Of a stretch of DNA of 64,000 nt, positions 22,498 through 64,000 are shown in pieces; position 1 is the stretch's first letter, and each line of letters begins with the position of its first letter. The position numbers were made by a program, and so were the translations under genes. The stretch covers positions 62,001 to 126,000 of the forward strand of contig MKVR01000002.1 in NCBI GenBank assembly GCA_001899235.1, given 5' to 3'. Under the pieces are notes generated by a model. It was not told the origin of the DNA. It saw only the letters and a list, made by a program, of their open reading frames with translations, and did no database searches. Origin of the DNA: Nitrosospira sp. 56-18. Lineage in GTDB: Bacteria > Pseudomonadota > Gammaproteobacteria > Burkholderiales > Nitrosomonadaceae.

Positions 22498-22959
22498 ATG
22501 GAACGCCTCACCATATCGCTCGATAACCAGCTCTGCGAGCAGTTCGACCAGTTCATACACGCGCGCGGATACACCAATCGCTCGGAAGCGATGCGCGACC
22601 TGATACGCGATGAACTGGAGGCCGCGCGCCTGGACAAGGGAAACGAGGGACACTGTATCGCCACTCTCAGCTACATCTACAATCACCACGAGACCGATCT
22701 CGCCAGCCGCGTTACCGCGGTGCAGCATGACCATCACGACTTGACGCTGTCCAGCATGCACGTGCATATGGATCACGACAACTGCCTGGAGGTGGTCATT
22801 CTCCGCGGCGATATCCGAAGCGTCGAAAGTTTCGCCAATACGGTGATGGCGACTCGCGGCGTCCGGCACGGCAAGCTGCATATGGTGCCGGTAGAAATCA
22901 GGCACGAGCAGCATTCTTCCTCCTCCGTGCCCCATACGCACAGCAACCCTCTCACCTGA
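22498..22959 (+). CDS. nikR: Nickel-responsive transcriptional regulator NikR
   Basis: A 153-residue NikR. The N-terminal ribbon-helix-helix (MERLTISLDNQLCEQFDQFI, then RSEAMRDLIRDEL) binds DNA. The C-terminal ACT-like domain holds the nickel site: His in QHDHHDLTLS, then MHVHMDHDNCLEV with the His-X-His and Cys of the square-planar site. The extreme C-terminus is extended by HEQHSSSSVPHTHSNPL, also His-containing. No strong ribosome binding site precedes the ATG. It probably acts on the half-site array at 19681-19743. Confidence 0.95.
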   Translation: MERLTISLDNQLCEQFDQFIHARGYTNRSEAMRDLIRDELEAARLDKGNEGHCIATLSYIYNHHETDLASRVTAVQHDHHDLTLSSMHVHMDHDNCLEVVILRGDIRSVESFANTVMATRGVRHGKLHMVPVEIRHEQHSSSSVPHTHSNPLT

Positions 22960-52384: not shown

Positions 52385-53656
52385 TCAAAAATTGTTGACG
52401 ATGATCTTGCCCCCGGAAATAACCAGATCAGGATATTCCAGAATTTTCGGGTTGCGAGTGGGATCGCCCTTCACTGCGATGATGTCGGCCGGAGCACCCT
52501 GCTGCAAAGTACCCAGTAGCGGCAGATCCAGTTGCTGGCCCGCTTTCGATGTCGCGGCGCGCAGGACGTCGATCGGTCCCATCTTTCCCATCTGCATCAT
52601 GTAAAGAAGTTCCTGCGCGTCGATGCCCCTGGGGATATCGGGATGCGCAATTTCCGCGCCATACAGGAGTTGCCCCCCCAGACCCGTCCAGATGCCTGCA
52701 TTGCCCGCAACACCGGAGCACCTGGACAACGTATCCAGCGTGGTGACGATCCTTACATTTTGCGCCACCGCCTTTTTCAACAGTGATTCAGGAATGGGGT
52801 CGCAAGGCACATGGGCCCATTCATCCACACCCGCGTCGATGGCTATTCGCGCACCCCGCTCCTCCGCGATGTGCGCCGTCACCTTTCGATTGTTCCTGTG
52901 CGCTTCATCCACGATCGCCTTCACTATGTTTTCCGGCAATAGCGGCCACGCCGATTTCGGATGGAAAGCATGGTGGGCATGCTGGGGATGGGCATGCGCA
53001 GGTTTTGCGCCGGCATGGCCGTGATCGCCATGATCATGACCGGCGCCATGCCCGGATGACCAGGGCGCCCCTGCTTCGCCACCGGGTTCCAGCGCGATTT
53101 TAATGACGACAGCCCCGCCGCGAACAAGATCGCGAACGGTTGCCCGCGCTTCTTTCTCCGTGGAAACGGCCACGGCAATATCCGCGTCCTCCCCCAGCAT
53201 GGGGATGGGATAACCTCCCGGTGCGGTGATAATCGGCCCGGATGTCAGCACGCGCAGACTCCCGTCGCCGCCATACGGCTTATGCAGAGGCCCTCCCACA
53301 TCCCGGATCGTCGTGATTCCATGCTTCAGCACGGTATCCGGGGGAACATGCTGAAATGCGAGATGCGCATGCAATTCAATGAAACCCGGCAGCAGCGTGG
53401 CGTCCCCCAGGTCAATGACTTTTGCATGGCTGGATCCGAAGGATTCACGCGGACCGATTCGCGCCACCTTTCCATTTACCAGCAATACCGACGTATCGGC
53501 CCTGATGTTATCGCCATCGAAGACCCGCGCGGCGTGCAAAATAATGGATTCATGATCCGCTTCCTGCGCCATGCCTGGAGGTGAAATAAAAACGGCCATC
53601 GCCAGGACCAGGCATGGCATGATCCGGCTGATCGGTTCGAAGTGCATATTCATCAT
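52385..53656 (-). CDS. Exported amidohydrolase with His-rich insert
   Basis: A 423-residue amidohydrolase-superfamily protein with a signal peptide (cleavage near GMA-QE). Metal-site residues include His96-X-His98 (FIELHAHLA), Lys186 (VVIKIAL) and His in VTAHIAEE. It resembles imidazolonepropionase-like amidohydrolases. Residues 203-232 are an insert with 11 His in 30. It is last in a unit after the GH88-like gene, 9 bases apart. Substrate unknown. Confidence 0.85.
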   Translation of the reverse strand: MMNMHFEPISRIMPCLVLAMAVFISPPGMAQEADHESIILHAARVFDGDNIRADTSVLLVNGKVARIGPRESFGSSHAKVIDLGDATLLPGFIELHAHLAFQHVPPDTVLKHGITTIRDVGGPLHKPYGGDGSLRVLTSGPIITAPGGYPIPMLGEDADIAVAVSTEKEARATVRDLVRGGAVVIKIALEPGGEAGAPWSSGHGAGHDHGDHGHAGAKPAHAHPQHAHHAFHPKSAWPLLPENIVKAIVDEAHRNNRKVTAHIAEERGARIAIDAGVDEWAHVPCDPIPESLLKKAVAQNVRIVTTLDTLSRCSGVAGNAGIWTGLGGQLLYGAEIAHPDIPRGIDAQELLYMMQMGKMGPIDVLRAATSKAGQQLDLPLLGTLQQGAPADIIAVKGDPTRNPKILEYPDLVISGGKIIVNNF

Positions 53657-53665
53657 TTCATTCCT

Positions 53666-54811
53666 TTAAAAGTGATTTGGGTCGCAAATGCCAGCAAGAA
53701 CCGAGACTGCCGCCATGAGAAAAAAACTTCCCCAGGCCGACTCGACCAGTTCATTCCTTCCTGGATGAGTTTTATAGCAGCAGCCCCGGAATATTCCTGG
53801 AGCCGGCTCGTCTCCACATCCGGCATGATCATTATTCCCGGCGAAGCCACTGAAATACCGGCTGCGGATGATTGCCGCAACTTGCCGCAAGGCCGCGTCA
53901 TGCCAGCGACCGCCATCCGGGGTCAGGTCAGCCAGGGAAAGCATCGCCAGGGACGCGATTACGGTTGACGAGGGATCGCGGGGCTGTGCCGGCTGGTTCA
54001 GCCGATCCGGAGGAAAGGGCGCCGGACGCGAATGCTTCCAGTACTCGCAGGCAGAGCGGGCATGGGTCAGATAAGGTTCTCCCCAACGTGCCGCCGCCCG
54101 CGTCAACCCCAGCATGGCCCACGCCTGGCCGCGAGACCATGCGCCAGCATAATCAACCGGCCTGAAACCACCATCCTGGAAGCAGGCACCGGCATGAAAC
54201 GCGCCGCCATGGGCATGGCAGACGGCCAGCAGGGTGTCTGCATGACAACGGGCTATATGGCGATAAGCGGCATGCTCGCTGTGGTCCAGCAACTGGATCA
54301 GGGCGGCAAGCGTATCTATCGTTACTCGCTGGTTTCCCTCGCTTCCGCCGCCCATCCCGGTGCCAAGCGGGATGCAATCCATTTGCGGATCATAGGAAGC
54401 GGCAGTGGCGGCTGCAGCTTCCCTGGCCAGTTCCCGTGCGTCGATATCACCGAACCAGAGATCGCCAAGGGAAGCGCCATACCAGAAGATCAGGCTGCGG
54501 TTGATGGAATCGGCATCGATTTTCGAGGATAGGCGCCTGCAGATATCGGATGCCTTGCGCCTGTCCGGCGCGGCCCCGGTTATCCGCGACCGCAACCACC
54601 ACCAGCCGCCCCAGAATCCGCCGACCCAGGAACCTCCCATGGAAGTAGCCCACTGGCCGGCACTCCCCGGCGAGTAAAGGGGAAAGCCGTCGGCGCAACA
54701 CGAATCGATGGCATCCATGCGGCGGATCATCAGTTCAAGTGCATGCACCATCTCCTTGCGGCTCAGCAGCGGCGTGTCCGCACTGCCAGCCTTCTCCTCT
54801 AAAATATGCAT
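53666..54811 (-). CDS. GH88/GH105-like glycoside hydrolase
   Basis: A 381-residue (alpha/alpha)6-barrel protein that resembles unsaturated glucuronyl/rhamnogalacturonyl hydrolases: GGSWVGGFWGGWWWLRSRIT, PVDYAGAWSRGQAWAMLGLT and PSSTVIASLAMLSLA. Asp residues in SYDPQMD and DYAGAWSRG are candidates for catalysis. No signal peptide is evident. It sits between an outer-membrane channel and an amidohydrolase gene, which suggests handling of an acidic saccharide. Confidence 0.8.
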   Translation of the reverse strand: MHILEEKAGSADTPLLSRKEMVHALELMIRRMDAIDSCCADGFPLYSPGSAGQWATSMGGSWVGGFWGGWWWLRSRITGAAPDRRKASDICRRLSSKIDADSINRSLIFWYGASLGDLWFGDIDARELAREAAAATAASYDPQMDCIPLGTGMGGGSEGNQRVTIDTLAALIQLLDHSEHAAYRHIARCHADTLLAVCHAHGGAFHAGACFQDGGFRPVDYAGAWSRGQAWAMLGLTRAAARWGEPYLTHARSACEYWKHSRPAPFPPDRLNQPAQPRDPSSTVIASLAMLSLADLTPDGGRWHDAALRQVAAIIRSRYFSGFAGNNDHAGCGDEPAPGIFRGCCYKTHPGRNELVESAWGSFFLMAAVSVLAGICDPNHF

Positions 54812-54824
54812 GGATAATATTTCC

Positions 54825-56321
54825 TCAGAAGACCAGATTGAAATCGATGTAGATCATGTCGATATCCTTTTTCCCTTGATAGATATTCTTGACGACATCG
54901 CCGCCGAAAGCATGCCCATAATAGAATCTCCATGACAATTGCTTGTTGAGCGTGTGTGTGAAACTGATATCCACCAATTGGCCCACATCGCTTTTGCCGC
55001 TGGAAGGCCTGCCTGAATAGCCGAATGCTCCCGAGCGCGATGTCGGTCCCAATCCGCCGTAAAACAGGTCGCCCGCATTATTGAGCGACAGGTGATGCGC
55101 ATCGATGGTTACACGGGTTTGCGCAGTGGGCGATACGATCATCTGAACATAAGCATCCTGCAGATTCATCAGGTTGTAGAAGGGCAGCTTGGCATAGGCG
55201 CGCCCGCTGGGAAGAGCCGTAAAGAAAGTTCTATGTTTATCGTCCTTCGCATTATTGTCGCCCGAGCTCAGGAAATAGAGCGCGCGCAGCCATGGCCTGA
55301 AAGGGAGTTTCGTCCACTGGTAACCGGCCTCGGCAGCGATCGCCCAGGCCTGATGATCCTGGTTGGTCCAATCGCCGAACTGGTAGGCTCCCCACAATAA
55401 TGCATCCATGCTTCCAGCATCCCTTTGCTGAAGGGTCAGCAGATGCGCCCCCAGGGTGTGGATATTCAGTTTCTGGCTATTCAGCCAGGGCCGATCCGTG
55501 CCGGCCCGGTTGTCTATCACCTGGGTATTACGCTTGTCGTCGTAATTCAAATAGAAAAGCCGGCCTTCGGTTCCGGGCAGCAAAGTGTCTTTCTTGCTGG
55601 TGAGCGCGGCATAAAAAAGGTTGATATCGCCGATTTCATCCTGTCCCTGGACGGTAAACCCGCCCTGGGTGGGACGAATGCCGGTCACCGTCATATTGAA
55701 ACCCGGTTGATCATAAACTGAGCTGAAGCCGTCGAAGCTTCGCCCCACATGAACCACATTCGATGCGAGGAGGCGTTGCGCGATGCGCGCCCTTTTTATT
55801 CCATCGAATTTGTCCACGCCGGTTCTGTATTCCATTCCATCCATGAATTCGAACCGGCCAATCTTCAGGAATGCTCCCGGCAGGCCCAGGGAATCGAATT
55901 TGAAGTCGAGGTAGGCCTGCCTCAGGAAAACGTTACTGGCGTTGGTGGCCTGATTCGCCAGAAAATAAGCACCACCCAGCCCCAGCGGCCCGCCGGGAGA
56001 AGCCACGGCGTTATCGGGCAGCCCGTATAGACCGATATATTGGGCCTGCGCATAACCATCGACATAGGGAGTAGTCAACAATGCGCCGAATCTGGCGCGT
56101 ACCGACCATAAGTCGTAGGCATTATTATTGTTTATCGCTGGACTGGGCCGGAAGTAATCCCACGCCTCGTAGCTGCCATAAAGCTCTCCCGTAAGGCGCA
56201 GGTGCGGATGGATCTGGCCCAGGGAAGATCTGCCTTCTTCCGCGCCGGGGGTGCCGTGAATTAGCAGCATGAAGCCTATTCCCATCCAAAGAATGAGCCG
56301 CTTTAATCGCTTCACGCGCAT
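54825..56321 (-). CDS. Alginate-export (AlgE-type) outer-membrane channel
   Basis: A protein of about 498 residues with a signal peptide (LILWMGIGFMLLIHGTPGAE) and a beta-barrel of the alginate-export family: DLWSVRARFGALLTTPYVDG, YLDFKFDSLGLPGAFLKIGR and ending DMIYIDFNLVF. It would let an anionic polysaccharide or oligosaccharide cross the outer membrane. It is first of three minus-strand genes. ATG 56321 is preferred to an upstream GTG at 56339. Confidence 0.85.
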   Translation of the reverse strand: MRVKRLKRLILWMGIGFMLLIHGTPGAEEGRSSLGQIHPHLRLTGELYGSYEAWDYFRPSPAINNNNAYDLWSVRARFGALLTTPYVDGYAQAQYIGLYGLPDNAVASPGGPLGLGGAYFLANQATNASNVFLRQAYLDFKFDSLGLPGAFLKIGRFEFMDGMEYRTGVDKFDGIKRARIAQRLLASNVVHVGRSFDGFSSVYDQPGFNMTVTGIRPTQGGFTVQGQDEIGDINLFYAALTSKKDTLLPGTEGRLFYLNYDDKRNTQVIDNRAGTDRPWLNSQKLNIHTLGAHLLTLQQRDAGSMDALLWGAYQFGDWTNQDHQAWAIAAEAGYQWTKLPFRPWLRALYFLSSGDNNAKDDKHRTFFTALPSGRAYAKLPFYNLMNLQDAYVQMIVSPTAQTRVTIDAHHLSLNNAGDLFYGGLGPTSRSGAFGYSGRPSSGKSDVGQLVDISFTHTLNKQLSWRFYYGHAFGGDVVKNIYQGKKDIDMIYIDFNLVF

Positions 56322-56386
56322 GCGCTCAAATTCTTCCACGTGGCCGATCCTGCTTCCCGTTTAGAAAAATCCGGTATCATAAAATC

Positions 56387-57184
56387 ATGGACCTGGTCTC
56401 CTCGAAGGATGGCACATCCATCGCCTGCTGGCACAGCGGCGCGGGAGAGCGCCTGCTGCTCGTGCACGGCACCTCCGGCGACCATCTGGCATGGACCCCT
56501 GTATTGCCCGCGCTTGAACGCCATTTCGAGGTGTGGACCCTCGATCGGCGCGGCCGCGGGCAAAGCGGCGATGCCCAGGGTTATGCGTTCGAACGCGAGT
56601 GCGAAGATGTCACCGCGGTCATGGACGCCATCGGGGGGACGGTGCATCTGCTCGGGCATTCCTTCGGAGGACTCTGCGCCCTGGAAGCAGCACTCCTGGC
56701 TCCCGGCATCGGCAAGCTCATACTCTATGAACCCCCCATCTCATTGGCAGGCAGTGGCTGGTCTCCCGCACTCGATGCGAAATTCGAAGCCCTGCTGGAA
56801 GCAGGCGAGCGGGAAGAAGTCCTGCTGCTTTTTTTTCGCAAGATCGTCAAAATGCCTCCCCATGAGATTGCCGCCATGCGGGCTGGTGTGCACTGGCCTG
56901 AACGAATTGCCGAGGCGCATACCATTCATCGCGAATTGCGCGGGATCGATCGCTATGTCTTTACGCCCCAACGGTTTCATCGCCTCAAAACTCCGGTTTT
57001 GCTCCTGCTTGGCGGCGAAAGCCCGCCCCGCCGCCGCCATATTGCGGAAATGCTTCACCGGGCGCTCCCCTCCAGCCGGATCAGGATCCTGCAGGGGCAA
57101 CAACATGGCGCGATAAGGACTGCGCCCGATCTGTTTGTCGATGCAGTGGTCCATTTTCTGGGTATCCAGGCAAGCGAGCGCTAG
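56387..57184 (+). CDS. Alpha/beta hydrolase
   Basis: A 265-residue alpha/beta-fold hydrolase. The oxyanion region is LLLVHGTSGDHLAW, the nucleophile elbow LLGHSFGGLCALEA (Ser), with an Asp in the LLLLGGESPP region less clear and a late His in GQQHGAI. Family substrates are diverse. Its TAG stop overlaps that of the convergent MFS gene within CTAG. Confidence 0.88.
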   Translation: MDLVSSKDGTSIACWHSGAGERLLLVHGTSGDHLAWTPVLPALERHFEVWTLDRRGRGQSGDAQGYAFERECEDVTAVMDAIGGTVHLLGHSFGGLCALEAALLAPGIGKLILYEPPISLAGSGWSPALDAKFEALLEAGEREEVLLLFFRKIVKMPPHEIAAMRAGVHWPERIAEAHTIHRELRGIDRYVFTPQRFHRLKTPVLLLLGGESPPRRRHIAEMLHRALPSSRIRILQGQQHGAIRTAPDLFVDAVVHFLGIQASER

Positions 57185-58395
57185 GCGGCGCGCGTGGCTG
57201 CGCCTGGCATCCCCGCCGTGCGCCGGCGAGCCGATGCCAGTGCCAGCGACAGGATGCAACCGCATAAAAGCACGCCAATCAGCATAAGCCATCCCGGCTG
57301 CGGATCTCCCGAATGGCTCGATAAGGCGCCTCGAAGCGGAGGACCCAATGCGAAGCCGCCAAAGAAGGCAACCGAAATAAAACCGGATGCCGTGGTCACT
57401 GCGCCAAATGCCGCATCTCTTACCAGCATGCTCATCGCTATCGCATTGGTTCCCACAGCGGCAAGTCCCATGCCGATGGCCCCGGTCCATAGCCGCCAGT
57501 GGCTTTCGGGGCCCGCGTGCATCGTCACCGCCACCGAGCAGGCCGAAATGGCAATCAGCGCAAGCAGAAGCAGCGACTCATCCTTGAGTTTTGCTCCCAT
57601 GGGTGTCAGGACTATCCTGGAGAGCATTCCCATCGCGCCAAAAACCGCGATCAAGGTGCCGGCAAGGGAATGGGACATGCCTTGCAGGGCGCCAAAGGTT
57701 GGCAGAAACGTGACGAAAGCGGAGAGCGATATGCCAACGCAAAACTGGATGCCCATCAACCGCAGCAATAGCGGATTGGGCCTGGAGAAAGTGAAGCTCC
57801 CGCCGGTCTTGCCGTGTTTCCCGGGAGCGAAAAAAAGCGTGGCAACCAGGAATAGCATGGCTACCGGAGCAATTCCGCCGAACGCCGCGCGCCAGCCATA
57901 TTGAAACGCGATACCTGGCAGCGCCAGGCCTGCGAACAGGGCTGCGACCTGAACACCGGATTGCTTGAGTCCTACGACTCCTGCTTTTTTCTCTTTGGGA
58001 ATTCGCTCCCCGATCAGCAGATTGGTGACCGGATTGGCAAGGGCTTGGCCGATTCCGCAGATCGCTGCTGCCGCAACCAGCCCATGAAAGCTGTCGATCG
58101 ACGCAATCAGCATGAAGGCCAGCGCGATGGCGAGAAACAACGCCATCAGCGCATGGCGCGAGCCGAGCCGATCGACGATGGCGCCCGCCCAGAACGACAA
58201 TACGGCTGCCAGGCCGAATGAGCTCATTACCAGGTAACCGAGCAGCGCCGGATCAAATCCCAGGTCACGGCTGAGCATCGGTCCAAGCGTGCTGACGGCA
58301 TACAGCATCAGCATGGGCAGGGCCATTGCGGATACCAGGACGATCCGGAACAAAATATCGGCAGCCGGCATATGCAAGCGGGTCCAGCGGGACAT
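57181..58395 (-). CDS. MFS transporter, putative exporter of cluster product
   Basis: An MFS protein of about 404 residues with twelve predicted helices. It has the motif after helix 2 in modified form (WAGAIVDRLGSRHALM) and AAICGIGQALANPVTNLLIG. I chose ATG 58395, with GGAGG 9 bases upstream; longer starts run into low-quality sequence. It follows the acyl-CoA dehydrogenase gene by about 150 bases, so it probably exports the product of the upstream genes. Confidence 0.88.
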   Translation of the reverse strand: MSRWTRLHMPAADILFRIVLVSAMALPMLMLYAVSTLGPMLSRDLGFDPALLGYLVMSSFGLAAVLSFWAGAIVDRLGSRHALMALFLAIALAFMLIASIDSFHGLVAAAAICGIGQALANPVTNLLIGERIPKEKKAGVVGLKQSGVQVAALFAGLALPGIAFQYGWRAAFGGIAPVAMLFLVATLFFAPGKHGKTGGSFTFSRPNPLLLRLMGIQFCVGISLSAFVTFLPTFGALQGMSHSLAGTLIAVFGAMGMLSRIVLTPMGAKLKDESLLLLALIAISACSVAVTMHAGPESHWRLWTGAIGMGLAAVGTNAIAMSMLVRDAAFGAVTTASGFISVAFFGGFALGPPLRGALSSHSGDPQPGWLMLIGVLLCGCILSLALASARRRTAGMPGAATRAA

Positions 58396-58547
58396 TAGCG
58401 CCGACGCCTCCATCCTGGACCCGCGGTTGCCTGCTGATGCCGGCACATCTGCAAGAGCAACGGGGAATATGTATATATCATATCTTGTCTCCCCTGCGGG
58501 AGCATGGCTTCCGTAAAGGGTTGGGGTTGGAAAGTGCGGCAATCGGA

Positions 58548-59750
58548 TCAGGCAAAATGGTATGCATCCTGCTCTTTGTAGAAATCGATGAGCCGCCGGC
58601 CCACAGAGCTGATAAGCGACTCGTCGGTGCCGTCGAGGATGCGTGAGGTGCGCGCTATCCTGAAAATACCTGAAAGGGGAGTCAGGTCGCTGATGCCTTC
58701 CGCGCCGTATAGTTGCACCGCTGAATCCGAAGCAAGGCACAAGGCTTGCGATGCTGCCATCTTGGCGACATTGATTTCGACATCATCGGCACGCCGGGCA
58801 TCGACCCCCCTCGCGGCCACCCGGATCAGTTCACGGGCACCTGCAATGGCCTGATACGCGTTGGCAACGTGCTGCCGCACCAGCTGTTTCTCGGCTAATC
58901 GGGCGGATCTGCCGCGCCCGGAATGGATTCGGGCGCCCATCAGGTCGAAGCACCGCTGCGCCAGTCCCACCCAGTTCATGGCACGGAGCAATCGCCCCAT
59001 GCCCAGCCGTCGCTTCATCAAATCGATGCCGCTGCCGCGCGCCCCCAGGAGATGATCCTCGGGGACCCGCACGCCCCTGAAAGAAATTTCGCCCTGGCCC
59101 AGTGAGCGTCCCATCATGCTGATGGGGCGTTCGAACCGGAACCCCGGCGAATTGGTGGGAACGACAATCATGGAAAGGGCGTTGCCGAGCGCGGTGTCTT
59201 CGCCGGCCGTGCGCGCCAGAACAGTGATAAAAGTGGCCCGTTCGGCGTTGCCGACAAACCACTTTCCGCCATCGATTATCCAGTTGCCGCCGGACAGGCG
59301 TGCGAAAGTCGTTATCAGGCCGGGAAACGACCCGCCATGCTCCGGCTCTGTCATTCCGTAGCCGGGAATGGCCTCTCCCGCCACCATGGGTTCCAGAAAG
59401 CGCCTGCGGATTTCATCCGTACCGAATTCCAGGAGCATATGCGCATCGAGTGCGGTATGGCCGCCAAAGATTGCTCCGGAGTATTCCGTACGCCCCTCCT
59501 GTTCGGCGACGATCAGATAGTCTTCGAGCGAGACGATTTTGCCGCCGTGGGAGAAGGGGTAAAACAACCCCCAGAGTCCGGCATGCCTGGCCTTCTCGAT
59601 CAGCTCCGACTGCAGCCGCGATGATGCTTCGCCGTCTTGGGCAAGGCGCGCCTCATTGGGTATGATTGTTTCATCCACGAACTTTCGCATCTCGATGGAG
59701 AGCGATCTGGCCAGCGCGGTATGGTCTGATTTGTTATAGGCTTGCGGCAT
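58548..59750 (-). CDS. Acyl-CoA dehydrogenase family protein
   Basis: A 400-residue FAD flavoprotein of the acyl-CoA dehydrogenase family. FAD-binding motifs include MTEPEHGGSF and NWIIDGGKWFVGNAERATFI. The end of the active-site loop reads RTSRILDGTDESL, with Asp in place of the usual catalytic Glu of YEGT, as in ACAD10/11-like members. It begins in a TGATG overlap with the AMP-ligase gene. It may oxidise the acyl substrate of the cluster. Confidence 0.9.
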   Translation of the reverse strand: MPQAYNKSDHTALARSLSIEMRKFVDETIIPNEARLAQDGEASSRLQSELIEKARHAGLWGLFYPFSHGGKIVSLEDYLIVAEQEGRTEYSGAIFGGHTALDAHMLLEFGTDEIRRRFLEPMVAGEAIPGYGMTEPEHGGSFPGLITTFARLSGGNWIIDGGKWFVGNAERATFITVLARTAGEDTALGNALSMIVVPTNSPGFRFERPISMMGRSLGQGEISFRGVRVPEDHLLGARGSGIDLMKRRLGMGRLLRAMNWVGLAQRCFDLMGARIHSGRGRSARLAEKQLVRQHVANAYQAIAGARELIRVAARGVDARRADDVEINVAKMAASQALCLASDSAVQLYGAEGISDLTPLSGIFRIARTSRILDGTDESLISSVGRRLIDFYKEQDAYHFA

Positions 59751-61414
59751 CAGTGCGCCTGGCGGGCAAGGCCGGGTACCGTCATGCGTTGGGCAAGCTC
59801 GATCTCCGCCGCTAATTGCTTTTTATCGATTTTCCCGGCGGGACTGAGTGGCAACTGCCGGTAATAACGCAGATACTCCGGAAGTTTGTTTATTTCCAGG
59901 CCCTGTTTGTGCAGGTAGCCAGTGAATTGCGATAGCGATGGACGCTCCATTCCCTCCCGTAATACCAGGCAGAGGCAGACCCGATGCCCCAGGTCCGGAT
60001 CGGCAACCGGTACACAGGCTGCGCTGACGACAGCCGGATGGGAAGCAGCAATATCTTCGATCTGAGCGGGGCTGATATTGACGCCCCCACGAATGATGAT
60101 CTCTTTTTTCCGCCCGGAGAGCACGAGATAGCCCTTGTCGTCGATCAGGCCAAGATCCCCGGTATAGACCCATCCTTCTCCATCCCGGTATCGTTCGTCC
60201 AATTCTGGCGCACTGACGTATTGCATGGGACTCAGCGGACCCCGGGCGGCAATTTCACCGATGCAGCCCCGCGGTATTTCCTGTTTCTGGTCATCGACTA
60301 TCCGGATGGAGCAAACCTCGGGATTGGGACGTCCTGCTTTGCGGAAAATGGTTTCCGGATCGTCGTCGAGCATGGTATGGCAATTAATGCCATCCGCCGA
60401 ACCGTACAAGCCGATGAAGCCGCATCGGAATGCCTCGGTACAGCGGCGGATGGATGCCTCATCGATTTTTGCCCCGCCGCTGATGATGGCGACCAGGCTG
60501 GAAGTATCAGCCTTGGCCAGCGCCGGATCCGCTGCGATACGCTGGAACATGGTGGGAACGCCCAGGATATGAGTGGGCCTCAGCTTTGCAATGGCTCGAA
60601 TGGCGATGGCAACATCGAATTGCGGCAGTACGGCAACCGATCCACCCAGCCAGGATAAAACACCAGACGTCGCAGTCGAGCCGAACGCCGTGCCCAGCGG
60701 CATCAGGTAGAGCCCGCTGAAAGTGCTTCCTTGGGGATGTATTCGCCGCAGAAAGCGCCCTCTTCCTCCGGCCAGCGCGTTGTGGGAATATGCAACCCAT
60801 TTCGGCTCTGATTCCGTTCCGGACGATATCAGGAAGCGAGCGGGCGAATCGGGATAAACCGCTGGTAATTCATCAGGTTCGATAGATTTCGCGCGAAGCA
60901 GATCTTCCAGCGTATGCCAGCCTTGCCGGGGGTTCCCATCCACGACCAGAATGCGAAGCGACAGCAGCGTCGGCCGCAGTGATTCGATCAATTCGCAAAG
61001 ATCGGTCTTTGTGTGTTCCTGCTCGACAATAATGACGCGTGCATCACACCGCCTCAGCAGGGACTGTATATCGAGGCGGCCGCGACCCGGCGGAAAGGGG
61101 GCGGCAATCGCGCCAAGCGCCGCGGCGGCGAGATCGATTGCGCAACACCGCCAACTGTTGGGAAGCTGGTATGCGATAACGTCGCCCGCGACAACCCCTC
61201 GCGCCCTGAAACCGTTCGCCAGCCGATGGACTTTGCTCAATAGCTGCATGTAGGTGACAGTTTCATCGAGGCTGATTACTGCCGGACCGTCGGGATGCCT
61301 CCACGCATGCTCGACAAACAGCTCATACAGGGATTTATTGGGATAGATTCCATCCCTGACCCACTGGCTGCGAACCTTCTCGGGAACCAGATCCACGATG
61401 CCTGAATGATTCAT
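59750..61414 (-). CDS. Acyl-AMP ligase (ANL superfamily)
   Basis: A 554-residue adenylating enzyme. The phosphate-binding loop is the unusual SSGTESEPKWVAYSH. GLYGSADGINCHT, YTGDLGLIDDKGYLVLSGRK and the C-terminal LPLSPAGKIDKKQL with the catalytic Lys are present. It would activate a carboxylic acid as acyl-AMP. The ATG at 61414 overlaps the stop of the CaiB/BaiF gene (ATGA). Close to the sulfur-carrier gene, it may provide the acyl group that is thiolated. Confidence 0.9.
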   Translation of the reverse strand: MNHSGIVDLVPEKVRSQWVRDGIYPNKSLYELFVEHAWRHPDGPAVISLDETVTYMQLLSKVHRLANGFRARGVVAGDVIAYQLPNSWRCCAIDLAAAALGAIAAPFPPGRGRLDIQSLLRRCDARVIIVEQEHTKTDLCELIESLRPTLLSLRILVVDGNPRQGWHTLEDLLRAKSIEPDELPAVYPDSPARFLISSGTESEPKWVAYSHNALAGGRGRFLRRIHPQGSTFSGLYLMPLGTAFGSTATSGVLSWLGGSVAVLPQFDVAIAIRAIAKLRPTHILGVPTMFQRIAADPALAKADTSSLVAIISGGAKIDEASIRRCTEAFRCGFIGLYGSADGINCHTMLDDDPETIFRKAGRPNPEVCSIRIVDDQKQEIPRGCIGEIAARGPLSPMQYVSAPELDERYRDGEGWVYTGDLGLIDDKGYLVLSGRKKEIIIRGGVNISPAQIEDIAASHPAVVSAACVPVADPDLGHRVCLCLVLREGMERPSLSQFTGYLHKQGLEINKLPEYLRYYRQLPLSPAGKIDKKQLAAEIELAQRMTVPGLARQAH

Positions 61415-63312
61415 TTGAAGCTCCAGGGAGAATTGACTTTTGTGTAAGAACCGGGACTGAGGCCTGGCTGCAGAAGTTCTATGCCATGCAGGTCTGCGAG
61501 GTCTTCGATAACCACGGCTGCCGGAACATCCGCCTCTCCGAGGATCTGGACCCATTCGTCCGCTGTCCTCGATAGAAACAGATCCCTCAGGTGCGAAAAC
61601 CCTTCTTCCTCCATGCCGACACCCGCTCCAAGGGTCGCTTCGAGGGTTTCAACCAACCGCGTCACCATCTTCCGGTCGCGGCACTCGACGGCAATTTTCC
61701 CCTGCCTGGTGGCATAGATGGCGTCGATCATGCTTTGCGGGGGCGGACTGATGCGGGATAGGTTGTACAAACCATCAAAATCATCCGCGCAAAGCAGCGT
61801 TGCTGCACTCATCAGTGACGACGTCACTCTCCCAGCGACATTATTCATGCATCGGTTGAGTAGCGCGACCGTGATTCCCTGTGCCGAAACCACGCCTCCG
61901 AGCACATCGAGAATGGTAAAAAGGGAACCGCAATGCGTACCCGAGGCTTCGGCGATCTTCCCGGCTACGCCTGAATAGGCCTGAGCCATGAAATCCGTAC
62001 CGGGCATTGAATTCGATGGACAGAGCGCCGGCCTGTCCGTTGCCCAGCCGGCGGCATAGGCATAAATCAGGGAAGGATTGATGGCAGTCAAGGCTTCCTC
62101 GTCCAGATTCAATAACAACGCCTTGCCCGGCGCCCAGTTATGCAGAAATACGTCGGCCCCCTGCGCCAGTTCCTTGATTTCCGTTTGTCCGTACGGAGAC
62201 TTGATGTCGATTTCCCGAATGGTTTTTAGCCGGTTGAGCGCATCGAAGCGAGCGGAACAGCCCTCGGCCATGGGCGGCATGCCTCGGAGTGGATCTCCCC
62301 CAGGCGGTTCTATGCGGATAACCTCCGCACCGAGGAGAGCGAGCAGGTGCCCCGCGAGCGGACCTTGTATCCTGCGGCAGGATTCGACGACGATGATGCC
62401 GCTCAGGGGCAGATCACTGGTGATCCTGCTCAATGGCCTGCCGCTGGGGTTTCCCTCGAAAACAAACTCCCACGGGCCTTGAGACCAGATGTGCCTGCTG
62501 TCGTCATCCCCTGCCCTTTCCTGGAGAGAACGCACCGGGCAAATAGCCATGCCGGTACTGGCACAGACCTGAGCAATGTGGTGATAGGTGAAATGCGATA
62601 TGGCATCGACTAATTCATCGGGCAGCGGGGACATGGCCTTCGCATATCGCATCAGGAAAGCTGTCCACCCCTTGCCGGCAGCCGCCGCACTTACGCCGAG
62701 TTCCGACCAGAATTTTTTCCAGGGTCCGGCATCGAGTGTTTCCAGCTCGAAAACGACGCCATCCAGCGAGGTGAAGGGAGGACAGGCCCGGCTTGGGACA
62801 CAGCCTGGCGACAGCCTCTCCGGGGATTCCGAGGCGGTTGCCCCCGCGATATATTGCCCCACGCTCAGCAGGGCCGCGGAAGCCATCGAAACATTGCTGC
62901 TGGATACCGAAAGGCCGCGCAACTGGCCAATGGAAGCGGCAGCGCCCCCCTGCAGCGCCAGTGCGGCGGTCAGCGTCGAAACGTAGCGGAGGTCCAGCGG
63001 CCGGGACTTGCCGCCGGCTCGTCCATGGACGGACATCAGCCCGCAAGCTGCCTGCATGGTATTTTCGGTCACTGATGCCTGTTTCGAAGCATCGTGCCAC
63101 CTCGTCACCCTGCACGCGACAGGCATGGTGAGGGGAGTTTCGAATTCAAAGGAAAACACCGCGTTGTCCGGACAGCTTTCGATCGATCCCACTTCCATGC
63201 CCAATGCGGCCGACTGGTAAAAAAGGGAAGAGGCCATGGCGGCAAAATCAGGCGCCGGGCTTTTCAGTCCCGTTATCGCACAGCCACTCAGCGCACGATC
63301 CGGATGATTCAT
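61411..63312 (-). CDS. Double-length CaiB/BaiF CoA-transferase-like protein
   Basis: About 633 residues, longer than the usual 400. The C-terminal half is a recognisable family III CoA transferase (LSGIIVVESCRRIQGPLAGH, LALLGAEVIRIEPPGGDPLR, DVFLHNWAPGKA) with the catalytic Asp in GTDFMAQAYSGV. The N-terminal half shows weaker CaiB-like features and no such Asp. ATG 63312 has GGAGG 10 bases upstream; ATG 63351, overlapping the previous gene, is also possible. It may transfer CoA or shape the acyl intermediate. Confidence 0.85.
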   Translation of the reverse strand: MNHPDRALSGCAITGLKSPAPDFAAMASSLFYQSAALGMEVGSIESCPDNAVFSFEFETPLTMPVACRVTRWHDASKQASVTENTMQAACGLMSVHGRAGGKSRPLDLRYVSTLTAALALQGGAAASIGQLRGLSVSSSNVSMASAALLSVGQYIAGATASESPERLSPGCVPSRACPPFTSLDGVVFELETLDAGPWKKFWSELGVSAAAAGKGWTAFLMRYAKAMSPLPDELVDAISHFTYHHIAQVCASTGMAICPVRSLQERAGDDDSRHIWSQGPWEFVFEGNPSGRPLSRITSDLPLSGIIVVESCRRIQGPLAGHLLALLGAEVIRIEPPGGDPLRGMPPMAEGCSARFDALNRLKTIREIDIKSPYGQTEIKELAQGADVFLHNWAPGKALLLNLDEEALTAINPSLIYAYAAGWATDRPALCPSNSMPGTDFMAQAYSGVAGKIAEASGTHCGSLFTILDVLGGVVSAQGITVALLNRCMNNVAGRVTSSLMSAATLLCADDFDGLYNLSRISPPPQSMIDAIYATRQGKIAVECRDRKMVTRLVETLEATLGAGVGMEEEGFSHLRDLFLSRTADEWVQILGEADVPAAVVIEDLADLHGIELLQPGLSPGSYTKVNSPWSFK

Positions 63313-63344
63313 ATTCCTGTTTCCCTCCATTGAGGCCGGCCGGA

Positions 63345-63620
63345 TCAGCATCCCCCGGCGACAGCGGGCAGGATGGTCAATAAATCTCCGTCCTTCAGGC
63401 TCGTGAGAAGGCCTTCGCGAAAACGGATGTCATCATCATTCACGTACAGGTTGATGAAACGATGCGCCTTTCCCTCGGCGATCAATTTCTCCCTGACGCC
63501 GGGATACTGCTGCTCCATCTGTTCGATGACTTCGAGAACGTTGAAACCGGTGATTTCGACGCGTTTCTGATTGTCGGTAAGAGGCCTCAAGATGGTCGGG
63601 ATATTCACGGTTACTGGCAT
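63345..63620 (-). CDS. ThiS/MoaD-family sulfur carrier with Gly-Gly-Cys end
   Basis: A 91-residue beta-grasp protein: MPVTVNIPTILRPLTDNQKR, HRFINLYVNDDDIRFREGLL and LKDGDLLTILPAVAGGC. The C-terminal Gly-Gly would carry sulfur as a thiocarboxylate, but one Cys follows it and must be removed first. AAGGAG precedes the ATG. A JAMM peptidase gene lies just upstream, the likely processing enzyme. It resembles CysO, QbsE and PdtH type carriers rather than MoaD of molybdopterin synthesis. Confidence 0.93.
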   Translation of the reverse strand: MPVTVNIPTILRPLTDNQKRVEITGFNVLEVIEQMEQQYPGVREKLIAEGKAHRFINLYVNDDDIRFREGLLTSLKDGDLLTILPAVAGGC

Positions 63621-63799
63621 GGCTGCTCCTTCCTGGAATTTTTAATCAATTTTTTAATCGGTAAAAAAGCTGCTATTGCATAATAAGTAGCTGCGTATCG
63701 AGGATCCGGGTTCAGGAAAGCCGGCCGGCATGTGCACGTTCATTCACGGCTTCCCCGGAATAAAAGGCAGAAATTGAAGCCAACGCGTAATTTGAACGC
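63621..63799 (-). promoter_or_regulatory. Gap upstream of sulfur-carrier gene
   Basis: A 180-base AT-rich gap separates the JAMM peptidase and sulfur-carrier genes, both on the minus strand. It could hold a promoter for the downstream genes; I cannot point to a convincing -35/-10 pair. Confidence 0.3.
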
Positions 63800-64000
63800 T
63801 CAGGTCATCGTTGCCAGTTCGCCATCCGATTGATACAAATTCAGCATCCTGATGCGCTCTTCGGTAACCATTCCGTCCGCGATGCGGAAGCTGCGAATTT
63901 CCTCCTCATACCTGGAATCCGTCGGAATAATCACGTAGTGGGCACTGGGTTCCATCGCATGCTTGACATCGGCATGGCTCGGATAGGCCGGTGCATGGGT
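63800..64000 (-). CDS. Mec-like JAMM (M67) metallopeptidase, partial
   Basis: The C-terminal 66 residues of a minus-strand gene cut by the window edge. The visible part reads THAPAYPSHADVKHAMEP, SAHYVIIPTDSR, EEIRSFRIADGMVTEERI. This matches the Mec/JAMM family around the S-X-X-D end of the His-X-His-X7-Ser-X2-Asp zinc motif; the two His lie just outside the window. Mec peptidases process sulfur-carrier proteins. The stop is TGA at 63800-63802. Confidence 0.8.
   Translation of the reverse strand, partial: THAPAYPSHADVKHAMEPSAHYVIIPTDSRYEEEIRSFRIADGMVTEERIRMLNLYQSDGELATMT

Follow-up and report, generated by a model that had tools for sequence, protein, structure and literature searches.

What does Nitrosospira sp. 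56-18 make with a compact block of sulfur-transfer, acyl-activation and transport genes, and for which metal would the product be used? The block lies at the right end of a 64,000-nt stretch of DNA (the window), which comprises positions 62001-126000 of contig C2 (MKVR01000002.1) in a 3.29-Mb genome of 54 contigs, so that window numbering is the C2 coordinate minus 62000; a preliminary description made from the letters alone had read the block as a thiocarboxylic-acid synthesis and export cluster. We followed up its gene content and order, conservation, family assignments, one predicted fold and the distribution of an operator, and from these we infer all that is said below on catalysis, substrate, product, metal and the direction of transport. 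At a probability of about 0.58, the locus would make, export and take up again a small metallophore of the (hetero)aryl thiocarboxylate kind, mainly for copper; the likeliest compound is pyridine-2,6-dithiocarboxylate (PDTC) or one closely related to it. Taken singly, thiocarboxylate synthesis appears highly probable from the genes present, a copper role of some kind is reasonably probable, and a PDTC-type product seems slightly better than an even bet.

The core of the locus consists of the following genes, the last two of which lie beyond the right edge of the window.

63800..64000, minus strand: 3' part of a JAMM (JAB) metallopeptidase gene, the whole of which is C2:125800-126243 (Prok-JAB, 106.6 bits)
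63345..63620, minus strand: sulfur carrier, ThiS/MoaD-like, 91 aa (ThiS, 8.8e-14), with the C-terminus AVAGGC
61411..63312, minus strand: two-domain type III CoA-transferase of the CaiB/BaiF family, PtmU4/QbsK/PdtI-like (PF02515, 216.6 bits, two stretches)
59750..61414, minus strand: aryl-acid-type AMP ligase, PdtJ-like (PF00501, 195 bits; relatives PchD and 2,3-dihydroxybenzoate (DHB)-AMP ligase)
58548..59750, minus strand: acyl-CoA dehydrogenase family protein (PF00441, PF02770, PF02771; solved relatives)
57181..58413, minus strand: major facilitator superfamily (MFS) transporter, presumed exporter (PF07690, 130.9 bits; start 58413 or 58395)
C2:126450-127625, minus strand: MoeZ-type E1 plus rhodanese protein, 391 aa (ThiF 261.9 bits, rhodanese 59 bits)
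C2:127738-129693, minus strand: TonB receptor, 651 aa, upstream of the MoeZ-type gene

The six genes in the window share one strand and stand in the order first described, and both of the start/stop overlaps claimed from the CaiB/BaiF gene to the dehydrogenase are present in the sequence: the CaiB stop (61411-61413) overlaps the ligase ATG at 61414, and the ligase stop (59750-59752) overlaps the dehydrogenase ATG at 59750. Although the CaiB open reading frame (ORF) has its first ATG at 63351, alignment with relatives points to a start at the ATG of 63312. Most relatives align with the 519-aa MFS ORF only from about residue 105-130, and the start of this gene is therefore probably near 58395-58413. 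An E1-like gene had been predicted to the right of the window, and the MoeZ-type ThiF-rhodanese gene is found just beyond the edge, on the same strand and next to the JAMM gene; MoeZ is the best NCBIfam model for its product (615.7 bits, below that model's cut-off of 647). Ring-forming genes had been expected on the same side, and there none was recognised.

The search suggested by the preliminary description, for the same gene order in other Nitrosomonadaceae, found it: MoeZ-JAMM-carrier-CaiB-ligase-dehydrogenase-MFS, all on one strand, is complete in 31 of 34 relatives' loci in the family, and because the same seven genes recur in this order and strand, the arrangement is not a product of chance. 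The three incomplete loci are two that end at contig ends (L062 and L071) and one in which the ligase gene is split by about 8 kb (L070). The CaiB protein occurs in 35/125 family genomes, namely 15/23 of Nitrosospira in the wide sense and 20 of Nitrosomonas, and one carrier of the locus is N. europaea ATCC 25978. The TonB receptor gene stands upstream of MoeZ in our locus and in all 14 other Nitrosospira loci, and, within the stretches examined, in one of 20 Nitrosomonas loci (L058). Plasmids gave five records with partial matches only, the best covering 75%. In one Nitrosospira locus the JAMM gene is a tandem pair (L042:7368-8363, oriented coordinates). The ammonia/methane monooxygenase subunit family PF02461 has no match in our own genome, an assembly rated 99.89% complete; since 16/23 Nitrosospira-genus genomes have it, including the single-contig genomes G094, G096 and G105 with three copies each, we read its absence here as an assembly gap (seven of the 23 assemblies are without it).

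The chemistry is suggested mainly by the CoA-transferase and the ligase. The 646-aa CaiB protein has two PF02515 stretches, with Asp453 invariant in 17/17 sequences, and its gene lies directly beside and overlaps that of the acyl ligase, the arrangement of a thioacid cassette (PtmU4 itself lay outside the alignment). The accessible part of PMC6006322 describes how an acyl-CoA synthetase and a two-domain type III CoA-transferase convert an acid to the thioacid, the sulfur coming from the carrier, and states that the pdt, qbs and ytk clusters all have this pair. The cluster moreover encodes a sulfur-transfer system of its own (E1 plus rhodanese, carrier and JAMM), as is characteristic of thiocarboxylate clusters. 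The best solved relatives of the ligase are PchD and other aryl-acid (DHB-AMP) ligases; the region that reads HNF in PchD, the Asn of which we take to bind an ortho hydroxyl, reads TAF here. The motifs YGSADG(V/I)NC and SSG(T/S)E(S/A)xPK are present in 73/73 grouped ligases (five groups; 76 aligned), in which both cluster types distinguished below are included. Because the ligase is aryl-acid-like and has these motifs in common with Pseudomonas pdt-type clusters, the product is most likely a pyridine thiocarboxylate resembling PDTC, and on the simplest reading the acid would be the same as in pdt, dipicolinate or a precursor of it.

The Gly-Gly-Cys end ascribed to the carrier is real in this protein and is not a feature of the family: among 105 carrier C-termini read (some genomes twice), 75 end in bare Gly-Gly and four, ours included, in GGC. 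A role of the JAMM peptidase as a pure trimming enzyme was rejected as a general one on the same count.

The closest known system is pdt of P. stutzeri KC, P. putida and P. kilonensis F113. MoeZ, JAMM, carrier, CoA-transferase and ligase (PdtF-J) are common to both, and the core PdtF-G-H-I-J is present here in order; pdt-type loci also have the dehydrogenase, the MFS transporter and a protein of the unsaturated-glucuronyl-hydrolase (GH88) fold, and their ligases are 54-69% identical to ours across 32 loci. By contrast, pdt has an AraC gene, a different TonB receptor and a different operator. Because other genes occupy the upstream stretch of the nitrifier loci, the cluster is here filed as pdt-like and not as pdt. 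The synthetase/CoA-transferase pair with carrier-derived sulfur is also that of PtmA3/PtmU4 (thioplatensimycin) and ytk, where, in the available part of PMC6006322, the carrier system lies elsewhere in the genome and the acid differs, whereas here the carrier is within the operon. The qbs cluster (thioquinolobactin), as far as the sources at hand describe it, has carrier, JAMM, E1-rhodanese, ligase and CoA-transferase as here. It differs in the ligase, which has AMP-binding domains only in our cluster (PF00501, PF13193), with none of the fused methyltransferase that QbsL presumably carries; xanthurenate-pathway genes were not noticed in the partly annotated 34 kb around the cluster. Methanobactin loci resemble the present one in a secreted chelator with TonB re-uptake, in organisms with copper monooxygenases and, in some uptake loci, in FecI/FecR-type regulation; they differ in chemistry, and our cluster has no recognisable gene for a peptide precursor or of the MbnB type.

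The left limit of the cluster had been set at 57181, which proved too short: the conserved unit runs further left, and the genes at 52385-56339 travel with the cluster in the family. Behind the MFS gene, most nitrifier loci encode a hydrolase on the opposite strand and then a barrel protein (PF13372), a protein of 381 aa and an amidohydrolase, here represented by the following.

56387..57184, plus strand: alpha/beta hydrolase (PF12697), beside the clusters of many but not all relatives
54825..56339, minus strand: outer-membrane barrel protein, possible export channel (PF13372 Alginate_exp, 104.9 bits), a conserved neighbour
53666..54811, minus strand: GH88-fold protein, 381 aa, assigned by sequence and predicted fold
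52385..53656, minus strand: amidohydrolase (PF01979), with an apparent signal peptide and a His-rich insert, both by eye

The 381-aa protein is present in 35/35 CaiB-positive and 5/90 CaiB-negative family genomes. Four of those five (G023, G024, G051 and G076) hold remnants of the cluster, with JAMM and carrier genes still nearby and no CaiB or ligase match, and G088 has fragments; this co-occurrence, together with the remnants, places the protein in the pathway in this family. The remnants and fragments (L163-L167) and the locus with the split ligase (L070) are decaying clusters. The protein matches the Bacillus unsaturated glucuronyl hydrolase (UGL) at 1.1e-10 by sequence, and its model (pLDDT 92.6) matches the UGL fold in Foldseek at 9.5e-17 with a TM score of 0.80. 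Asp166, invariant in 29/29, aligns with UGL Asp149, and the position of UGL Asp88 is Ser or Ala in the aligned rows, read by eye; the UGL structure 2ahf carries the mutation D88N. Unsaturated glucuronyl hydrolases hydrate the double bond of a six-membered ring acid, and by analogy we propose (de)hydration of a pyridine precursor as the role of the GH88-fold protein.

Evidence on the metal comes from upstream of the receptor gene, where a tandem palindromic 17-mer, TGYGRCAATNTGYCRCA, lies at C2:129858-129891. The exact 17-mer occurs within 600 nt of the first gene in 15/15 Nitrosospira loci, with 27 exact sites in 9,000 nt upstream and one in 302,214 nt elsewhere. Nitrosomonas loci have it exactly in 2/19, with at most one mismatch in 17/19 and with at most two in 19/19, and at the one-mismatch level there are 29 sites in 11,400 nt upstream and four in 344,086 nt elsewhere. 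Dinucleotide-type shuffles, with two mismatches allowed, gave means of 0.11 and 0.15 loci and maxima of 3 and 1. The pattern was derived from the Nitrosospira sites, and the Nitrosomonas and genome-wide counts are the independent results: each of 23 Nitrosospira-genus genomes has 4-13 exact sites and no site of the reversed pattern. In 23/23 genus genomes the 17-bp palindrome, tandem or single, defines a small regulon in which TonB systems and metal-binding proteins are frequent.

Our own genome has nine sites at seven places (C2:129858, C4:30290, C4:31378, C4:60574, C12:25314, C16:132505 and C50:118095), and the targets, besides this cluster, include genes for an HMA-DsbD_2 protein, for two TonB receptors, one of them with a BNR protein, and for an outer-membrane protein paired with a BNR protein, as well as a thioredoxin-like-TonB-ExbB-ExbD operon. 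The other sites examined were all those in G094, G096 and G105 and part of those in G101 (20 regions, L168-L187), of which L187 held nothing recognisable. The TonB-ExbB-ExbD operon, the BNR-TonB pair and the L155 TonB receptor recur behind the operator in G094, G096 and G105, and a PEP-CTERM protein joins the targets. One such protein (L005:5293-6102, minus strand), upstream of the receptor gene, has an operator-like tandem of its own with two mismatches and a mature N-terminus that is His by eye. Three sites in G096 surround an HMA-DsbD_2 protein, a CopA-like P-type ATPase with two HMA stretches and a PF02583 (CsoR-family) repressor. Finally, an EGKCG-type precursor stands behind the operator in G094 and G096 (L170:1282-3835 and L175:4150-6699); that of G096 has EF-hands, scores 19.7 bits against NF050137 (cut-off 19.5) and is followed by PF05114 and DUF2063 genes.

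Relatives outside the family bear on the same point. A one-genome-per-species scan gave 396 relatives, and the counts of types cover the best 80 of these (79 loci), the closest relatives only: 24 nitrifier, four methanotroph and 51 other loci. In type A, 32 of the 51, the locus has at least one of four further genes (methyltransferase, second MFS, 807-aa protein, 840-aa protein), and the order agrees with pdtCKPELMFGHIJON of P. kilonensis F113; P is here the methyltransferase, E the second MFS and L/M the 807-/840-aa proteins, letters that we matched from the published order as far as the source gave it. A pdt-type locus, L099:2786-7752, encodes an 807-aa protein without a Pfam match and one of 839 aa, half of which is of the class III aminotransferase type. 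Type B (10/51) has in 10/10 a protein of NCBIfam NF033672 (E 1e-30 to 7e-40), a family named 'copper uptake system-associated protein', with a homologue of the window-type receptor in 9/10 and the extra pdt genes in 0/10; the receptor homologue and NF033672 occur in 0/32 type A loci within the stretches examined. The remaining nine loci are six actinobacterial ones and L118, L134 and L139. With a type B receptor in Nitrosospira and upstream genes that, as read, have no pdt extras, the nitrifier clusters are what we call type B-like.

In a quick tree of 80 CaiB proteins (short search, several long rows, the best 80 of 396 sampled), 25 nitrifier and three methanotroph rows form a 28-row group with support 100, which Methylosinus joins at moderate support (29 rows, 80), and the type B loci of Ralstonia, Rugamonas and Hahella then join at support 85, also moderate (32 rows); the remaining seven type B loci are interspersed with type A in other parts of the tree. 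A PF02461 search of nine genomes was positive for those of L127 and L133 and negative for those of L087 and L088. By eye the gene of L133 resembles PmoA, yet the cluster of that metagenome-assembled genome has 68% identity to the window's and may stem from a binning error. A DUF2946 match beside the Methylosinus cluster reached E = 0.43 only and is not claimed, and a YcnI-like identity for the Methylococcales neighbour at L088:19883-20677 was dropped, as it had no Pfam or NCBIfam match. Through the operator neighbours, the type B sister loci and the CaiB tree, the copper idea has gained independent though indirect support.

In the mechanism that we propose, the MoeZ-type protein would adenylate the carrier at its C-terminal glycine and would provide, through the rhodanese domain, the sulfur for a carrier thiocarboxylate, the JAMM peptidase taking off the extra Cys of this particular carrier. 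The ligase would activate an aromatic acid, and the two-domain CoA-transferase would replace the activating group with the carrier's sulfur to yield the thioacid. The dehydrogenase, for which ring oxidation is the proposed role, possibly together with the GH88-fold protein, would finish a ring taken from primary metabolism; if that ring is the DapA product of lysine synthesis, as proposed, no dedicated ring-forming genes would be needed. Export would be by the MFS transporter, perhaps with the barrel protein, and the TonB receptor would re-import the metal complex, on which the amidohydrolase may act. The tandem operator would place the locus under the same regulator as copper-handling genes.

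Some relatives appear to have the uptake side by itself. G118, G120, G122, G123, G101, G108 and G112 (L156-L162) have the receptor followed by the amidohydrolase and no match to synthesis genes in the stretches read (partial for G101), and the amidohydrolase is placed on the uptake side for this reason; the pattern suggests piracy of the metallophore. Queries with pdt-type P, E, L, M and AraC found no match in the receiver or remnant loci. In G122 the receptor is preceded by sigma-70-type (FecI-like) and FecR genes, and in G112 an MbnH-family-like protein stands beside it at 94.3 bits, far below the curated cut-off of 362.85.

The same chemistry could serve an ordinary iron or zinc metallophore, the copper genes sharing the operator for other reasons. 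PDTC is indeed termed a siderophore in the available portion of the Pseudomonas literature, where the title of a cited work on P. putida concerns zinc use, and G122 has its FecI/FecR-type genes before the receptor homologue. However, such regulation has also been proposed for methanobactin uptake (PMC3621798), no convincing Fur box was found in the 350 nt upstream of TonB and MoeZ in 34 loci (the best, in L060, having 5/19 mismatches to the consensus), and the copper-named protein of the sister loci and the copper genes among the operator neighbours argue against iron or zinc, an explanation we consider unlikely. A little less probable again is that the secreted chelator guards against excess copper instead of feeding the cell. 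The operator does precede the EGKCG/EF-hand operon of a ribosomally synthesised and post-translationally modified peptide of copper-protective type, and it lies beside the CopA-like ATPase cluster in G096; against protection, it also precedes the TonB receptor here, other TonB receptors and TonB-ExbB-ExbD, and uptake-only loci exist.

Nickel, for example for urease, is a highly improbable target: urease tracks the cluster unconvincingly (26/35 CaiB-positive and 49/90 CaiB-negative family genomes), and the gene of the nickel regulator NikR (103.5 bits, L093:3220-3696), which in the type B cluster of Ralstonia stands by a different TonB receptor, was noticed to adjoin the cluster in that locus only; the window has a gene for the NikR C-terminal domain at 22657-22887, plus strand, about 30 kb from the cluster. 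We give least credence to the explanation without any secreted product, in which carrier, JAMM and MoeZ would serve cysteine or cofactor synthesis as in CysO/Mec and the rest acyl-CoA breakdown. The best solved relatives of the carrier do belong to the ThiS/MoaD family (4n6e_B, 3.2e-29) and to the CysO type (3dwg_C, 2.6e-26, which we take to be mycobacterial CysO), and a phylogeny that puts the carrier and JAMM genes with CysO/Mec and the remaining genes with fatty acid breakdown had been named beforehand as a result that would count against a thiocarboxylate cluster. The 3dwg_C match touches this in part; since pdt-type carriers are 52-66% identical to ours, it does not discriminate. The ORFs listed around the cluster, where no search was aimed at a cysteine synthase, showed no sign of one. 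Moreover, the three sulfur-transfer genes stand together with the acyl genes in a single co-oriented block across several proteobacterial classes, and the two-domain CoA-transferase, the aryl-acid-like ligase and the accompanying TonB receptor and MFS genes argue against this explanation.

A copper metallophore of the PDTC type nevertheless has several observations to contend with, in addition to the Ralstonia NikR gene. The upstream genes of the nitrifier loci, as read, show no pdtP, E, L or M (the window itself was not queried), and if pdtL or pdtM make the acid, the product would differ. The GH88-fold gene is found in 31/32 type A but only 4/10 type B stretches, so the protein is not needed everywhere, and the 75 carriers with a bare Gly-Gly end would need no JAMM trimming. 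A strong receptor homologue (E 1e-60 or better, genome-wide) is present in one Nitrosomonas genome only, G013. NF033672 occurs in 0/125 family genomes, and 0/14 control genomes matched either, while the model does match the ten loci. As for the operator, it also precedes a kinase-like ORF without evident metal link in our own genome, a copper-only account fits poorly with those of its sites that separate riboflavin synthase from RegB-type genes in G094, G096 and G105, and the EF-hand group of EGKCG precursors is described as copper-protective in the part of PMC12452194 available.

The existence of the locus was already known: the accessible part of PMC1779556 (2006; row 4a) lists the PdtF-J neighbourhood of N. 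europaea and N. multiformis under siderophore biosynthesis, and that paper was the only one found, in a search that was not exhaustive, to join nitrifier names with several thiocarboxylate terms; another, on an unrelated subject, had one mention. A 2022 review, in the portion available (PMC9693385), tabulates N. europaea as without siderophore and without chalkophore biosynthesis, and the main text of a 2026 paper on the copper needs of ammonia oxidisers has neither 'chalkophore' nor 'siderophore' (PMC13003922). Within this search, the copper-linked form, the operator, the GH88-fold member and the producer/receiver pattern appear to be new. A broader reading is offered tentatively: one thiocarboxylate chalkophore may be common to ammonia-oxidising bacteria and some methanotrophs and would be, next to methanobactin, a second chemical class. 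A pdt-related core lacking the Pseudomonas-type extras would make it, a tandem operator not described before, that of a copper regulon, would control it, a GH88-fold enzyme would have been recruited into pyridine-ring formation, and relatives that have only receptor and amidohydrolase would pirate it.

The ammonia-oxidising enzyme is thought to need copper. If a copper metallophore is made, this suggests how ammonia oxidisers supply copper to ammonia monooxygenase, and it would explain the split between producers and receivers inside one genus. It would also name a concrete compound to seek in soil and wastewater, and the copper supply of nitrifiers would become directly testable.

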